Source: a virus
Reading direction: 5' to 3' (one strand)
DNA: 21,315 nucleotides
IMG/VR virus record: IMGVR_UViG_3300047392_000073
Coordinates: 1 to 21,315 of that record
A program made the translations under genes and the position numbers. The notes under the pieces are model-generated. The model saw nothing but the letters and a program-made list of their open reading frames with translations, was not told where the DNA came from and made no database searches. Position 1 is the first letter of the stretch; every line of letters starts with the position of its first letter. Positions 842-19,372 of this stretch are shown here, piece after piece.

Positions 842-1024
842 ATGAGATGTCAGCTTTGCGGATGGAACGCAGAACACACAACCAACCTATCTTTTTGCCC
901 TGATTGCGGATCGGGAGAGAACCTATCCCATTACGCAGACGAGGCTAACGACGCATACATCCATTGCTACGCCTGTAACACGATGATGTTGTATTGGCAG
1001 TTTCGCAATCACGCCTGTGGATAA
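842..1024 (+). CDS. Small multi-Cys zinc-binding-like protein (60 aa)
   Basis: Three Cys pairs are visible (CQLC at residues 4-7, CPDC around 19-22, CYAC around 42-45), with a terminal HACG. This is the most Cys-rich member of the 18-1024 chain. The last codons and the stop (TAA 1022-1024) lie inside a perfect DnaA box on the opposite strand, so the gene end is shared with the putative origin. A nucleic-acid or protein adaptor role is possible; no specific function can be assigned. Confidence 0.65.
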   Translation: MRCQLCGWNAEHTTNLSFCPDCGSGENLSHYADEANDAYIHCYACNTMMLYWQFRNHACG

Positions 1025-1081
1025 CTCTGTGGATAACTTTTTCACGGATTTATAGTCGCTTCCCTAGAAAAACATCCTAGT

Positions 1082-1121
1082 CTTAGTGTGCTTAGTAGTA
1101 TCAACTACACTAATACTAAGC
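1082..1121. repeat. Inverted repeat cluster in the origin region
   Basis: GCTTAGTA (1090-1097) and TACTAAGC (1114-1121) form an 8-bp perfect stem around a 16-nt loop. A second pair, TTAGTGT (1083-1089) and ACACTAA (1107-1113), interleaves with it. Four copies of a TTAGT core, two on each strand, therefore sit within 40 bp. The layout suits iterons or an operator for a dimeric DNA-binding protein, possibly the product of the gene at 1311. Confidence 0.45.
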
Positions 1122-1215
1122 AAGTTCCTATATAGACCGACTAAAAAACCTAAAAAAGTTATCCACAGCCCGCATAAACAAAGGGCTTCAGAGGCGCACT
1201 TTTTTGAAACCCGAT

Positions 1216-1244
1216 TTGACAAACAAAAAAACCTAAAATAAACT
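1216..1244 (+). promoter_or_regulatory. Sigma70-like promoter for the gene at 1311
   Basis: A perfect -35 hexamer TTGACA (1216-1221) is followed after exactly 17 bp by TAAACT (1239-1244), which keeps four of six TATAAT positions. Transcription would start near 1250, leaving a leader of about 60 nt. That leader contains a weak hairpin (CTAATC 1262-1267 with GATTAG 1280-1285). The second A-rich 13-mer lies within the spacer, so origin melting and transcription may be linked. Confidence 0.55.
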
Positions 1245-1310
1245 GATTTTTACCAACCTGCCTAATCTGTCCATCGTAGGATTAGACAAACTAATAAAGA
1301 GAGATGAAAA

Positions 1311-1943
1311 ATGGCTAAAAACTACTACGACCCCGAATACGGCGAAATGATCGGCATTGCGGAAGTCGAAAAAATCACAGGAATAACCAAAGCTCAGCTA
1401 CGAAACTGGCGCAAACCTGAACACCACCACCTAGCAAAGTTTGACTATTTTGCGGGCGAAGCCAACCAGATCTGGTATCGCAAAGACGATGTAGAACACT
1501 ACCTAAGCACTCACGGCGTAAAGCTTGGTCAGTCTGGCTTGAAGCGCGTTGAAATGCCTAACTCAGTCAAAGCCCCTGTCGTGATCCTTGAGCTTGACGA
1601 GAACAAGCGTTCAGTCTTAGAGTCATTGACTAAGGTAACTACTCAGAATGTATGGCTACGCTATTACAACGAGTTGGCTGAGCGTCACGGTCAGAGCTTC
1701 TTTACCTTTATCAAGCCAGAACAGGCACGCTTGTATGGTCTTTGGAAGGGCGTAGATGTTACTGATGTAAAGTTCTTGCCACATAACCGCAGAGATGAGA
1801 ACCTAGAGCTTTTCTATGCTGGCTCAGTCTTTGCTATTCGTAAGTTCATTGCCTCGATGTCTGATGGCATTGTTAGCATTACCGATCAGGAGATTATCCA
1901 AATCCCTATCGGAGCAGTCCCACCTGAAAAAGAAACTAAGTAA
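1311..1943 (+). CDS. MerR/excisionase-like helix-turn-helix DNA-binding protein (210 aa)
   Basis: Residues about 14-70 read as a winged helix-turn-helix of the MerR/excisionase type: EVEKITGITKAQLRNWR as the HTH, then IWYRKDDVEHYL as the wing. The remaining 140 residues are not recognised. The start at ATG 1311 follows an AGAGAG element. It is the first gene after the origin-like region and its promoter, and opens the operon running to about 3068, so a regulator or origin-binding factor is a reasonable guess. Clear integrase or phage-attachment features are absent, so a true excisionase role is unlikely. Confidence 0.75.
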   Translation: MAKNYYDPEYGEMIGIAEVEKITGITKAQLRNWRKPEHHHLAKFDYFAGEANQIWYRKDDVEHYLSTHGVKLGQSGLKRVEMPNSVKAPVVILELDENKRSVLESLTKVTTQNVWLRYYNELAERHGQSFFTFIKPEQARLYGLWKGVDVTDVKFLPHNRRDENLELFYAGSVFAIRKFIASMSDGIVSITDQEIIQIPIGAVPPEKETK

Positions 1944-5546: not shown

Positions 5547-5797
5547 TGGCTAACTTCAAGCACAAGGTATGCACGATCAATGGCTGTGAGCGTAAGCACA
5601 AGGCTCGTGGGATGTGTAACCCACATTACATGGAGGCTATGCGTAACTGGGAGTTCGAGCCTAAAGCTTGGGCTAAGCCCATGGAGGAGCGCAAGCGACC
5701 TCGCAGGGATCCAGTTACTAAAGAGATCATTGAAGTCCTGCCAACAGTTGACGCTGATGGCTTCTGGGACTTTGTAAAGAAAGAGATGCAACTATGA
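5546..5797 (+). CDS. Small zinc-finger-like basic protein (83 aa)
   Basis: Starts with GTG at 5546, overlapping the helicase stop (TAGTG). The N-terminal motif C-x4-C-x7-ARGMCNPHY (residues 9-28) is a Cys3-His metal site often seen in actinophage small proteins and at the ends of HNH proteins. The middle is basic and Arg/Pro rich (EERKRPRRD); the C-terminus is helical. A DNA-binding accessory role is likely but unproven. It overlaps the next start by 4 bp (ATGA at 5794). Confidence 0.7.
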   Translation: MANFKHKVCTINGCERKHKARGMCNPHYMEAMRNWEFEPKAWAKPMEERKRPRRDPVTKEIIEVLPTVDADGFWDFVKKEMQL

Positions 5798-6021
5798 AAG
5801 CAGAAGTAGCAATCGGCTACACGATCAGACAGCTTCGCAAAGAGCGAGGATGGTTTGCTATTGATCTTGCTTACCAAGTTCCGATCGCCAGGGCTTACCT
5901 ATCTGAGATCGAACATGGACACAAGGCACCCTCTATTGCTATGCTGAGTGACATCGCCCGCGCATTACAGATGAAGCCGTCAGAGTTTTGGCGTGCTGTC
6001 GCAGAAAGAATTGATGAATAA
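5794..6021 (+). CDS. XRE/Cro-type helix-turn-helix regulator (75 aa)
   Basis: A complete small HTH_3 domain: IRQLRKERGW, then IDLAYQVPIARAYLSEIEHG as the HTH with the typical SEIEHGH-K-PS turn, and MLSDIARALQM afterwards. It consists of the domain alone, with no dimerisation or cleavage region, so it is a minimal regulator rather than a CI-like repressor. Its stop overlaps the WhiB gene by 8 bp, so the two regulators are probably made together. Operators were not identified. Confidence 0.88.
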   Translation: MKAEVAIGYTIRQLRKERGWFAIDLAYQVPIARAYLSEIEHGHKAPSIAMLSDIARALQMKPSEFWRAVAERIDE

Positions 6022-7888: not shown

Positions 7889-10399
7889 ATGGCTCTGACC
7901 AAGCCCTTCCAAGAACTACTTGAGCGTCTAGGACGCGAGTCATCTTCTCCAGTCACCATCTGCTACCAGAGCGCCACTCAGGGCTTCAAGGTGAAGCAGA
8001 CCAAGGTTGAGCATGCAGATACCGTTGTCGAGGCTCTGACTGACATGAATGCCAATGTCTGGTACGAGATCAACCCGTCAACTACCAATGTTCGCGCACG
8101 CGCTGAGGATGTAGAGAAGCTTGCAGCTGTATGGATCGACATCGACTACAAAGAGACAGGTATTCAGAGTGAAGACAACGCTAGTGGTTTGGTTGACCTA
8201 CTATCAGAGCTTATTGGCGTTTCGCCTACTGCAGTGGTCCGTTCTGGTCACGGTCTCCAGCCCTACTGGGCCATTGATCCAGAAGAGGACTATACCCAAG
8301 AACAAGCTGCAGGTGTTCTTGCACGTTGGGGTGCGTTCGTTCGCTGGGTGGCTGCATCGCAAGGCGGGTCGCTCGATTCCGTATTTGATCTCCCGCGTAT
8401 CTTCAGGGCCCCTGGTTCTACGAACTTCAAAGATTCACTACATCCGATTCCAGTATCGGTTGACTTCCCAGAGGCTTGGCGACCTCTAAGCCTAGAAGAA
8501 CTAAACGATGTCCTAGATACTCACGGCTTCACCAGTCTTTACACAATGCCAGAGGAGTATGCACTTGTCTCAGGATCAAAGGAATGGGAGTATGCCGATC
8601 ATGACTGCCATTGGGTTAGCAATCTATTCAGCTCTGTACGGCCTTCTAACGGAGTCCCGAAGTCACGCCATGGCTGGCTTCTACAGCAGCTTATTAAGAT
8701 CAACGCTGCTCACCGTAACGGTTGCCTCTCAGAAAGTTCCGCACACCTTCTTGTCGAAGTCCTCGATGAGCGGTTCCGCACCTTCCTAAAGTCTGCACCA
8801 TCACGCCCAATGAACCAGGGTGAGTTGGAGTCAGCTAACCTTTGGGCTATTGCTCGTGTTGAGGCTATGACTGCTCAGAAGCTCAAGGAAGAGCTAAAAA
8901 ACCACAAGCACGACTCTCTAGCCGATGGCGCAGAGATCTCAGTAGCTGAGTTTCCAGTTAGTAACGACCGCACCGAAGAGGAGCTCGCTGAGATCTATAA
9001 CTCTTCATATGGACCATACGGTAGAACTGATACCGCAAACTCTTTTCGCATGGTTCACTTCATGCAGAATGAATACAAGCACGTAACTTCTATCGGCTGG
9101 TACAGGTGGTCTGGCTCTCGCTATGTTCGAGATGAAGAGAAGTCAATCACCCGCATGGCTATTGATGCTGCTCGCTTTGTGGAGAATACACTCGCAAGCC
9201 AGGATCAGATCAAGTGGGCTGAAGCATCACAGAATAAGGATCGCTTGCAGAATGCCATTACTATTGCAAGTACAGACAGTAATGTAATTGTTTCATCTAT
9301 CGATTTGGACGCTAATGCTAACGAGCTTTGCACGCCTGAAGGAATTGTTAATCTTGAAACAGGAGAAATTCGACCTGCTATCAAGGGGGTTGACCTCAAT
9401 ACAAAGCAAACCTCTGTCTCTCCTGCAAAGATTGACACTCCTAAATGGAACATTTTCCTCAAGGACACGCTTGAAGATCAAGATCGAATTATGTACGTGC
9501 AAGAGCTGTTTGGTGCAGCGCTATTCGGAGACGCACGCTACCATGTACTCCCAGTCTTTGTAGGCTCTGGAGCCAACGGTAAGTCTACAATTATCAACAT
9601 TATGGAAGGTATCCTTAATGACTACGCAGCAACGATGCCAGAAAACTTTCTACTTGATACCACAGGGAATGCACACCCAACCGACATTGCTCGGCTACGT
9701 GGTGTACGATTCGCCGTGGCTCAGGAAACCCGTCCCGACGGCAAGTTTAACGAGTCACGAGTTAAAATGCTTACGGGTGGCGATGTCCTTTCAGCACGCT
9801 TCATGGGCCAAAACTTCTTCGACTTCAAACCGACGCACACGCTCTTTATGGCGGTCAACCACCTCCCAGAAGTTAAGAGTGGTGGAGATGGTTTCTGGCG
9901 CAGGCTACGCAAAATTGATTTCCGCAAAACGATTGCCCCTGAAAAGCGTAAGGAGGGCTTGGCTCAAGAGCTTATTGAGCAAGAAGGTCCAGGCATTCTT
10001 CAATGGATGATCGAGGGTGCTGTTCGCGTTAGCAATGTAGGCTTCAACGAGCCTGAGTCAGTCAAGCTAGCAACCCAGTCTTACCGTCACGAGGAAGACC
10101 ACATCGCCAAGTTCTTGGAGGAGAAGATCATTGTTGCAGACACGGCTACTGCAGGTCGCACATCGGTCTACAACGCCTACCAAGCATGGTGTATGGAGAA
10201 TGGCGAGAAGCCAGTCCCTCAGAACGGCCTAGTTCGTGAGATCAAGGGTCGCCTGGGTGTCACCGAGTCAACTAGCAGCGGCTTCAAGGTCTTCCTAGGC
10301 ATGGAGCTTATGCAGATCAACTCACGTAACAACTCATCATCAATAGCCGACATGCTCGGCATTGTAGAGGAAGAAAAAGATGACTGGTACAAACGCTAA
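7889..10399 (+). CDS. D5-type primase-helicase (836 aa)
   Basis: A fusion of an N-terminal primase-like module and a superfamily 3 helicase. N-terminus: WIDIDYK (82-88, Asp84/Asp86) and RSGHGLQPYW (118-127, His121), the pattern of archaeo-eukaryotic/PrimPol primases. C-terminus: Walker A FVGSGANGKST (557-567), FAVAQET (608-614), sensor LFMAVNHLPEV (652-662) and Arg-finger-like FWRRLRKIDF (669-678). It primes and unwinds phage DNA. The start follows GAAAGGA at 7876. It overlaps the HNH gene by 20 bp. No DNA polymerase gene is in this window. Confidence 0.92.
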   Translation: MALTKPFQELLERLGRESSSPVTICYQSATQGFKVKQTKVEHADTVVEALTDMNANVWYEINPSTTNVRARAEDVEKLAAVWIDIDYKETGIQSEDNASGLVDLLSELIGVSPTAVVRSGHGLQPYWAIDPEEDYTQEQAAGVLARWGAFVRWVAASQGGSLDSVFDLPRIFRAPGSTNFKDSLHPIPVSVDFPEAWRPLSLEELNDVLDTHGFTSLYTMPEEYALVSGSKEWEYADHDCHWVSNLFSSVRPSNGVPKSRHGWLLQQLIKINAAHRNGCLSESSAHLLVEVLDERFRTFLKSAPSRPMNQGELESANLWAIARVEAMTAQKLKEELKNHKHDSLADGAEISVAEFPVSNDRTEEELAEIYNSSYGPYGRTDTANSFRMVHFMQNEYKHVTSIGWYRWSGSRYVRDEEKSITRMAIDAARFVENTLASQDQIKWAEASQNKDRLQNAITIASTDSNVIVSSIDLDANANELCTPEGIVNLETGEIRPAIKGVDLNTKQTSVSPAKIDTPKWNIFLKDTLEDQDRIMYVQELFGAALFGDARYHVLPVFVGSGANGKSTIINIMEGILNDYAATMPENFLLDTTGNAHPTDIARLRGVRFAVAQETRPDGKFNESRVKMLTGGDVLSARFMGQNFFDFKPTHTLFMAVNHLPEVKSGGDGFWRRLRKIDFRKTIAPEKRKEGLAQELIEQEGPGILQWMIEGAVRVSNVGFNEPESVKLATQSYRHEEDHIAKFLEEKIIVADTATAGRTSVYNAYQAWCMENGEKPVPQNGLVREIKGRLGVTESTSSGFKVFLGMELMQINSRNNSSSIADMLGIVEEEKDDWYKR

Positions 10400-10991: not shown

Positions 10992-11062
10992 GCGCCCCAA
11001 GTGTTACGGAAGCACAACGGTCTCCAACACCGTTAGCCTAGGTTCGACTCCTAGGGGGTGTG
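10992..11062 (+). tRNA. tRNA-Trp (anticodon CCA)
   Basis: A full cloverleaf folds: acceptor GCGCCCC with GGGGTGT (two G-U pairs), D stem GTGT/GCAC, anticodon stem ACGGT/ACCGT with loop CTCCAAC giving anticodon CCA (11024-11026), a 4-nt variable loop, and T stem CTAGG/CCTAG with loop TTCGACT. The 3' CCA is not encoded (G then CTCA). The first base follows the HNH stop codon directly, so it is probably processed from the early transcript. It decodes UGG. Confidence 0.93.
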
Positions 11063-11063
11063 C

Positions 11064-14218: not shown

Positions 14219-15132
14219 CTACTCTATAACAATGTCGTCTACCGAGTTTCCTTGATTGTATGCAGCGGGGGTAAGGACCAGGCCATATTCAGTAGTGACA
14301 GCAGCGCCCGTTGCGTTGTAAACAAGATCGCCGCCTACCTGCGAAGTCATGTTTGCATCAGAGTATGCGCGGGCAGTAATAGTTGTTCCGCTAATCAGCG
14401 CCTTCAGCCCATTGATTGTTGCGTTATCTGAAACTTGCAAAGATGCAATCTGACTTACAGTATTTCCTACAGACTGAAGTACGCGAAGAAACTGTGGATA
14501 AAAGTAGCTAGTGCCAGACTGGTAGGTGTAGTACTTTGGGCTAGAACCTTGGCATACAAATGATGGTGCTGTGTAGGTCGATGCGTTGCACGTACTTCCA
14601 CAGGCATATTGGTAAGTATATGAGTTGTAGTAGTAAGACCGACAGTAAGCAGCATTCTTAATGTTGTTCGAGTTCCAAGCACCGCAGTAAGGTCCTGCAT
14701 AGTTTGTTGCAAAGCAGTAATTGGTTGTGTAAGCATTACATGTATAAACTGCGTTGTTACTATAACCGTAGTCGCAGAAAGTGCCGTTATAGTTTGTGGT
14801 GTAGTTCGCGTTTGAGTAGGTTGACTGGTACAAATCAACAGCCCACCAGTTGTTAGCGTCTGTCACCCAGATAAGCGCACCTGAGCCAGAAACTGGACCC
14901 TGAATAGAGATAGACGTTGCCTTATTCGGCATAACAACTGAAACAGCAGGATAAGTGTTTGCAGCATCCGTGCTTTGAGCCTTATTAGAAGTTACCTTCC
15001 AGGTGCCACGCAAAGCCTTCCACAAAGACCCATCAGAAGCAGTGCCAAGACCGCCAGTAGTATCCGTGCGGTTGAATGTGTCAGCAAACTTATTACGAAT
15101 GCTTGATGCAACTGCTCCAAGATTCTGCTTCA

Positions 15133-15133
<1 letters not shown>
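14219..15133 (-). CDS. LamG-like minor tail/adhesin protein with Cys/Tyr-rich insert (304 aa)
   Basis: The N-terminus FADTFNRTDTTGGLGTASDG and LWKALRGTWKVTSNKA is the typical opening of concanavalin/LamG-like domains in actinophage minor tail proteins. DANNWWAVDL (92-101) is a core strand. Residues about 102-212 are a very unusual insert with eight Cys (120, 132, 140, 150, 164, 178, 182, 194) and over 20 Tyr; there is no Cys elsewhere. The fold then resumes (FLRVLQSVGNTVSQIA). ATG 15133 is chosen because it overlaps the fibre stop (TAATG). Probable receptor-binding tip. Confidence 0.78.
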
Positions 15134-17120
<1,987 letters not shown>

Positions 17121-17121
<1 letters not shown>

Positions 17122-17850: not shown

Positions 17851-19372
17851 CTTCGATCTCCAAGATGTTCTTCTCCGACTAGGTGAAGGACTACAAGAGT
17901 CTGTCCACGCACCTAACTTATACAACTATAAGCCAAGCGAGAAGCAGCAACTCTTCCACGAGATGCAGAACAAGGCTCGCCTGTACATCGGCGGTAACCG
18001 TTCAGGCAAATCTGTAGGTTCCACGCTTGAGGGCATCTACTATGTCACGCACTCACACCCATGGCGCAAGACCCCAGAAGGCCCTGTGCGCGGTCGAGTG
18101 GTTGCAGTTGACTTCCTGAACGGTGTAGATAAGATTATCCTGCCCTTGTGGAAGCAGTGGCTTCCTAAGAAGTATCTGATCAACGGCAGCTGGGAAGATT
18201 CGTACTCCCGCGAGCGCCATGTGCTAACACTGAACAACGGCAGCTTCGTTGAGTTTATGTCGCAAGACCAGGACCTCGACAAGTTTGCAGGTTCATCCCG
18301 CCACTTCGTTCACTTTGACGAAGAGTGCCCTAAGACCGTTTGGCAAGAATGTCTTGCGCGTCTTGTGGATACTGACGGCGACTGGTGGATGAGCCAGACT
18401 CCCGTGCAAGGCATGGAGTGGATTTTTGATGACGTATTTATACCAGCAAAGGAGGGAACTAAGGACATTGGAATTGTTGAAGCAAGCATGGAAGATAACC
18501 CAACTCTCTCTAAAGAAGCTATCGCTCGCTACATGGAGGCGCTTACCCCTGAAGAGCGACTTATCCGAAAGAACGGACAGTACGTCCATCTTGGCGGTTC
18601 AGTCTTTCCAGAATTCAGTCCTCTCACACACTGTATTCCTAAAGGACAGTTCAAACCCACTAGCAAGCATCGAATTATTCGAACAATGGATAGCGGATAC
18701 ACCAACCCCACCGTCTGGTTGTGGATGGCAGTTGACGAACATGGCACTATTACAGTCTTCAAAGAGCACTACCAAGATAAATGGAATATTGCCCAGCATG
18801 CTGAAGTTGTCAACAAAGAGACGCGGCAAATCATCCGAGAGTCTGGCGCAGAGGTCTATCTAACTACTGGCGATCCTGCCATTAAGCAGACCAAAGAGCA
18901 CACGGGTACCTCGATCCTGCAGGAGTATGCCAAGCATGGCATCTACATCGCAGTCGATCAGATTCCTAGCGACCGCCGCGTGGGACTTGAGCGCATTCAG
19001 CAGTACATGAAGGTCAACCCAAAAACTAACAAGCCTTGGCTTATGTTTACAGATGACTGCGCTCACTTGATCGCCGAGCTCCCTAAGCTGAAATGGAAGA
19101 AGCATGCCTCTCCAAAGGTTGCCGAGCAGAAGAATAAGCTTGAAGATATTCGCGACAAGGACAACCACTGTTACGACGCGCTAAAGTATGCGATGACTTT
19201 TATGGCAGACTTGACTCCTGAGGCACAATTCAGCGAGAATAAGCGTGAAGAGTTCCACAGCATTTTCCGTAATGATTTCCGAGCAACAAGCCCAGCTTCT
19301 GACTATGATGAGGGTGATGGCTGGGGCAACCAGTGGCGAGGAAACTCTTCGACACTAGAACTAGAAGGATAA
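17837..19372 (+). CDS. terL: Terminase large subunit (511 aa)
   Basis: The DNA-packaging motor and head-filling nuclease. Walker A GGNRSGKS (52-59), Walker B FVHFDEE (157-163), SQTP coupling motif (186-189), then the RNase H-like nuclease with Asp285 (RTMDSGY), Asp346 (TTGDPAI) and Asp447 (HCYDALKYA). Complete length. It starts at GTG 17837 inside the preceding nuclease gene, so translation is coupled. No small-subunit gene precedes it; the HTH protein at 12031 is the only candidate in view. It acts at the portal encoded at 19982. Confidence 0.94.
   Translation: MAKDSFDLQDVLLRLGEGLQESVHAPNLYNYKPSEKQQLFHEMQNKARLYIGGNRSGKSVGSTLEGIYYVTHSHPWRKTPEGPVRGRVVAVDFLNGVDKIILPLWKQWLPKKYLINGSWEDSYSRERHVLTLNNGSFVEFMSQDQDLDKFAGSSRHFVHFDEECPKTVWQECLARLVDTDGDWWMSQTPVQGMEWIFDDVFIPAKEGTKDIGIVEASMEDNPTLSKEAIARYMEALTPEERLIRKNGQYVHLGGSVFPEFSPLTHCIPKGQFKPTSKHRIIRTMDSGYTNPTVWLWMAVDEHGTITVFKEHYQDKWNIAQHAEVVNKETRQIIRESGAEVYLTTGDPAIKQTKEHTGTSILQEYAKHGIYIAVDQIPSDRRVGLERIQQYMKVNPKTNKPWLMFTDDCAHLIAELPKLKWKKHASPKVAEQKNKLEDIRDKDNHCYDALKYAMTFMADLTPEAQFSENKREEFHSIFRNDFRATSPASDYDEGDGWGNQWRGNSSTLELEG

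Follow-up and report, generated by a model that had tools for sequence, protein, structure and literature searches.

What do exact DnaA boxes do in the intergenic DNA of a phage, and are they the core of a replication origin? The question arises from a 21,315-base IMG/VR fragment of an uncultivated phage (the window, which here means the whole stretch of DNA analysed), in which an initial annotation read three DnaA boxes and a pair of 13-mers as a phage origin built from elements of the host type. The boxes stand upstream of the gene of a predicted DNA-binding protein with a helix-turn-helix (HTH) domain.

Genes of the window encode an SNF2-type helicase, a WhiB-like protein, an exonuclease, a D5-type primase/helicase (7889-10399, downstream of the HTH gene), a terminase and a P22-like portal. 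WhiB is a useful indicator of actinophages (PMC10202952), and the WhiB-like protein encoded in the window suggests that the host is probably an actinobacterium; a search of genome contigs with the primase, made for a clue to the host, returned no relatives. The window also carries a tRNA-Trp gene (anticodon CCA, 10992-11063), a gene for a tail-side protein with an odd low-complexity stretch rich in Cys, Tyr and Asn (14219-15163) and, directly after it, a gene encoding collagen-like G-X-X repeats (15133-17121).

Among isolate phages, neither the DNA of the window nor the HTH protein and its DNA has a match, and the primase reaches an identity of about 36% at best. Relatives were collected from IMG/VR with the helicase and the primase as queries; a first search with the HTH protein alone had found none, which fits the variability of that protein. 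Several relatives are about 42-43 kb in length with overlapping ends, as expected of complete genomes. No integrase or partition genes were found among the genes scanned, which are a part of those in a complete genome.

DnaA boxes in the intergenic region

Three exact copies of TTATCCACA are present within 152 bp: box 1 (1016-1024) and box 2 (1028-1036) on the minus strand, and box 3 (1159-1167), inverted, on the plus strand. In 2000 dinucleotide-preserving shuffles, the mean number of exact boxes per shuffled window was 0.14, and 0 of 2000 contained even two boxes within 152 bp. Two more exact copies of TTATCCACA occur within tail-protein genes (14493-14501 and 15929-15937). Box 1 includes the stop codon of a small Cys-rich ORF on the plus strand (842-1024), which belongs to the conserved flank, and so doubles as the end of this gene, as had been noticed.

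Boxes 1 and 2 are 12 bp apart, which leaves a gap of 3 bp. At bacterial oriC, the boxes of the basal unwinding system stand in tandem and are separated by no more than 3 bp (PMC8287927), as are the two at 1016-1036. The same system includes DnaA-trios, of which at least three, with the consensus 3′-GAT-5′, lie within 16 bp of a box (PMC8287927). Near the boxes of the window, the best candidate runs consist of three minimal NTN or NAN triplets, which are frequent by chance. Box 2 and box 3 are contained in the left (1027-1042) and right (1153-1168) arms, respectively, of a perfect 16-bp inverted repeat, CTGTGGATAACTTTTT.

The gene-free gap that follows box 1 (1025-1310, 286 bp) is A/T-rich as described, with 64% A/T compared to about 51% in the window. 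The 13-mer AAAAAACCTAAAA is likewise found in both of its reported copies (1143-1155 and 1226-1238), and a repeat of equal length arose in 4 of 1000 shuffles of the gap. As unwinding repeats of the E. coli type, the two copies were rejected: the 13-mer is not kept in the relative L008, and its second copy forms the spacer of the predicted plus-strand promoter of the HTH gene, TTGACA-N17-TAAACT (1216-1244).

Comparison with close relatives, proposed as a check in the initial annotation, favours the boxes: 12 or more related contigs retain them here. Exact tandem boxes 12 bp apart occupy this place in the window, L006, L008, L009, L010, L011, L023 (with three boxes in a row), L026 and G025; L012, L013, L038 and L042 have one exact and one near-exact box, and L007 has two inverted boxes. 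The tandem pair persists here while the adjoining DNA has completely diverged. The inverted box varies in number and position: L008 has it where box 3 stands, and further relatives carry one upstream of the tandem pair. About 16 more distant relatives have the palindrome and the HTH gene described below and no box at this place, so the boxes appear to be accessory to the locus and not its core, as had originally been assumed. On a helicase tree of 24 rows with many weak forks, the box trait requires three changes. As judged by this comparison, the boxes are a real and conserved, but optional, trait.

A nested palindrome and an HTH protein

The feature shared by relatives with and without boxes is a nested palindrome, AGTCG...TATATAGACCGACT, found at 1052-1142 in the window. 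The frame AGTCG...CGACT is present in most relatives, with a nearly constant total length of 94-96 bp (88-106 bp over all). Within the frame lies an inner dyad (1078-1118 in the window, with the half-site TTAGTR) of about 41-50 bp, which provides putative sites for the HTH protein. Its sequence differs between phages, its symmetry stays, and it was never missing in the relatives examined; it usually precedes the HTH gene by 160-240 bp, except in the G013 group, where this is the distance to the start of a small inserted gene. In most genomes none of 20 shuffles reaches the dyad score; among them are G001, G008, G010, G013, G017, G020, L008, L023, L038 and L050. The score in the window equals the best of 20 shuffles, and identification of its inner dyad therefore rests on comparison with L008 and other relatives. 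In G006, G011, L009, L011 and L045 the strongest dyad is a different one, which in L009, L011 and G006 is built from the DnaA boxes themselves. The outer arms of the nested palindrome, AGTCG and TATATAG-CGACT, keep their sequence where the inner dyad does not, and may serve another protein or outward promoters. A second dyad, CTAATC...GATTAG (1261-1287), lies just before the HTH gene and is a putative autoregulatory operator.

An RNA element was considered and rejected. Rfam returned only weak microRNA matches, far below gathering scores, the folding energy ranges from -14 to -40 kcal/mol, and half-sites recur outside the dyad; DNA sites are therefore preferred. These sites are inverted dyads, and not the direct repeats of iterons. 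No description of the palindrome/HTH element, or of recurrent tandem boxes in phages, was found in a search of open-access papers.

The HTH protein (1311-1943, plus strand, 210 aa) is a putative initiator or regulator, with a winged HTH at residues ~8-71 and a C-terminal helical domain that ends in an LPVGDVPP-like motif. Family members are 24-46% identical to the protein of the window. Residues 8-71 are modelled as a winged HTH like those of BldC, mycobacteriophage Xis and MerR (VIA Z 5-7, ~55 residues). The model of the C-terminal domain is confident (pLDDT 91, pTM 0.85) and has no match in the PDB. Pfam and PHROG scans gave no known initiator or Rep family, only weak HTH_17, MerR and excisionase matches, and 13 members of the HTH family had no match to the RepA_N domain.

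Exchange of the protein together with its putative sites

DNA of the window matches that of L006 at 88% over 749-1042 and at 79% over 1934-2535. Homology ends at 1042, just after the tandem boxes, and returns at 1934, at the end of the HTH gene, which indicates that the cassette in between (1043-1933), devoid of DNA similarity to L006, has been exchanged with the boxes as a fixed edge. Protein identity between the window and G001 follows the same outline, with 93% upstream, 26% for the HTH protein and 89% downstream. A natural domain swap is seen in L038 (6616-7176) relative to L012, where the differences are confined to the dyads and the N-terminal DNA-binding domain; the boxes, the C-terminal domain and the flanks are nearly identical. 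The 46-kb contig IMGVR_UViG_3300034108_000621 has two different dyad/HTH cassettes, one at each end (L013, 407-1504, and L042, 9571-10492), both of which adjoin nearly the same DnaA boxes.

The protein and its putative sites also vary together. An NQLRN recognition helix is accompanied by TACTCA/CTACTC sites, with L006 as the single exception, and the other helix classes (the window, L008, L025, L027, L037, L038, L039, L042 and L053) by TTAG-type sites without TACTCA. This agreement between helix and half-site, which is not a count of independent events as the rows are related, spans several protein classes and the near-isogenic pair L038/L012. The HTH protein therefore likely binds these dyads. 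By these sequence comparisons, related phages exchange the DNA-binding protein and the palindrome that matches it as one unit.

A candidate replication origin

Stability over 100 bp is lowest in the window at 1063-1162, a putative unwinding region beside the tandem boxes. In ten relatives with near-whole contigs, such stability has its genome-wide minimum at the cassette in six, and the cassette ranks in the lowest 0.4% in the others, although low stability is partly expected for any long intergenic region. The cassette also precedes the replication genes. GC skew, which had been suggested as a check on an origin at this locus, was rejected as a mark of it: there is no switch common to the relatives, most of which show little change, and in the only two with strong skew, G025 and G010, the minimum is displaced to 3.5-4.5 kb before the HTH gene.

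Our preferred reading, to which we assign a probability of about one half, is that the region is a phage replication origin with its own initiator, and that host DnaA is an optional helper. The N-terminal winged HTH would bind the inner dyad (1078-1118), and the same protein would bind the second dyad (1261-1287) to regulate the promoter of its gene. Between the two dyads, the A/T-rich stretch of lowest stability would open, and the conserved C-terminal domain would recruit phage replication proteins encoded downstream, including the primase/helicase. In the box-carrying sub-lineage, host DnaA on the tandem boxes (1016-1036) and box 3 might assist opening or initiation; it would not be essential to the design. 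This reading draws on boxes that exceed chance and are kept, on the boundaries of exchange, on co-variation of protein and sites, on low stability, and on the precedent of the RepA/ori module discussed below. Several observations count against it: the skew has no common switch, about 16 relatives do without boxes, the protein belongs to no known initiator family and its C-terminal domain is unmatched, the sites form a palindrome instead of iterons, and the low stability is expected in part. Of the origin initially annotated, then, what stands is a set of boxes beyond chance, conserved and adjacent to the least stable DNA; the 13-mers, and the boxes as its core, do not.

The locus resembles known modules in which an initiator and its sites adjoin. 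In the PLE satellites of Vibrio cholerae, RepA has a DNA-binding domain that varies in step with the origin and a conserved C-terminal domain, and the pairing was addressed by tests of hybrids (PMC8263062). As appears to be the case here, the N-terminal domain of RepA swaps together with semi-palindromic sites in a non-coding region. PLE RepA has a RepA_N domain, whereas the phage protein combines a BldC/Xis/MerR-like domain with an unmatched C-terminal domain; its putative origin sites adjoin the gene and are flanked by DnaA boxes. Lambdoid O/ori modules (PMC7466680) likewise have an initiator-like protein, adjacent sites and A/T-rich DNA upstream of other replication genes, but the lambda sites are iterons within the O gene, whereas here a palindrome lies upstream of the gene, and no homology to O was found.

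In plasmids such as P1, F, RK2 and pSC101, an origin with DnaA boxes, binding sites for the plasmid's own protein and a region that unwinds is the standard layout (PMC4980987). These iteron plasmids share with the phage locus DnaA boxes next to an unwinding region of A/T-rich, low-stability DNA (the boxes being absent in part of the phage relatives), as well as sites for a protein of their own and its gene. They differ in having direct repeats and known Rep families, in place of a nested dyad and a protein outside these families. With chromosomal oriC (PMC8287927) the locus shares two boxes of the same orientation, a 3-bp gap and an A/T-rich neighbour; here the boxes are few, there are no convincing DnaA-trios, and neither dnaA nor dnaN was seen nearby.

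A more specific proposal, which we make tentatively and at somewhat less than even odds, is that the protein founds an undescribed initiator family composed of a BldC/Xis-like domain and a structurally unmatched C-terminal domain. Its specificity half would be swapped together with a nested palindromic origin core, and host DnaA would dock on a tandem box at the edge that stays invariant through these changes of specificity.

Alternative roles for the cassette and its boxes

Repressors typically exchange their DNA-binding domain together with their operators, and exchange of the kind seen here could also have arisen in an immunity-like cassette. The HTH protein would then be a repressor or activator with the two dyads as cognate operators, swapped between phages to escape one another's control; replication would start elsewhere, and DnaA would at most tune transcription. 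We consider this the main alternative, though less likely than not. It accords with the N-terminal fold, which is that of the BldC, Xis and MerR regulators, with the position of a dyad just downstream of the TTGACA-N17-TAAACT promoter, and with half-sites that overlap a TTGACA-type promoter in L049/L050. It accords less well with the presence of Cro/CI-like regulators besides the HTH protein, at 5794-6021 in the window and about 4.5 kb upstream in G008 (L191, 13001-13558), which provide these phages with a separate candidate repressor. Moreover, a PHROG scan of ten G008 genes found no integrase, the large upstream dyad is far from the start of the HTH gene and away from its promoter, and nowhere in the genome is the DNA less stable than in this region.

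Similar boxes are also found well beyond this group of phages. An arrangement of this kind had been thought rare in lytic phages, yet the tandem pattern TGTGGATAACNCTGTGGATAAC is present in at least 119 IMG/VR stretches (L059-L177), compared to 0 matches for the reversed pattern. A 32-base tandem query matched 497 isolate-phage records, compared to 7 with the reversed query, as well as 50 plasmids; all these counts take in partial matches as well as many near-identical phages. The isolate matches, which include T5-like, Berlinvirus (T7-like), Lactococcus and Microbacterium phages (L208-L212 among them), mostly sit in unannotated intergenic DNA. Contamination by host oriC was rejected as a source of the widespread tandem motif, with DnaA in 0 and terminase in 22 of 44 larger records. 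In G025, a second tandem pair (18866-18887, L187) is located between two structural genes, directly after a terminator-like hairpin.

The boxes might accordingly be a decoy or sensor for host DnaA, which would slow host initiation or couple a phage promoter to the level of DnaA and would be unrelated to phage initiation. Recurrence of the motif between genes of unrelated phages, several of virulent kinds with their own replication machinery, and the second pair in G025 fit such a role. We nevertheless judge it unlikely: with two or three boxes per genome, a phage could bind few of the hundreds of DnaA molecules before its copy number increases (E. coli has about 200 DnaA monomers per origin; PMC5835720), and the position of the boxes here is a specific one, on the border of the dyad/HTH cassette. 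That the boxes are operators through which host DnaA controls the HTH promoter, with no role in origin opening, is very improbable, since boxes 1 and 2 lie some 180 bp before the -35 hexamer and the inverted box varies in number and position, even though box 3 ends 48 bp upstream of this hexamer and lambda pR is reported to be stimulated by DnaA (PMC7466680).

Implications

If the locus is a replication origin with its own initiator, as we favour, it would add to PLE RepA a second natural and independent example, in uncultivated phages, of an origin whose specificity is exchanged through the DNA-binding half of the initiator alone, together with its sites. Because this module is common to relatives that have boxes and to those that lack them, what host DnaA does in such an origin would become testable. 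The recurrence of exact tandem boxes between the genes of unrelated phages raises the wider question of why these boxes are kept, even where a phage has replication machinery of its own.
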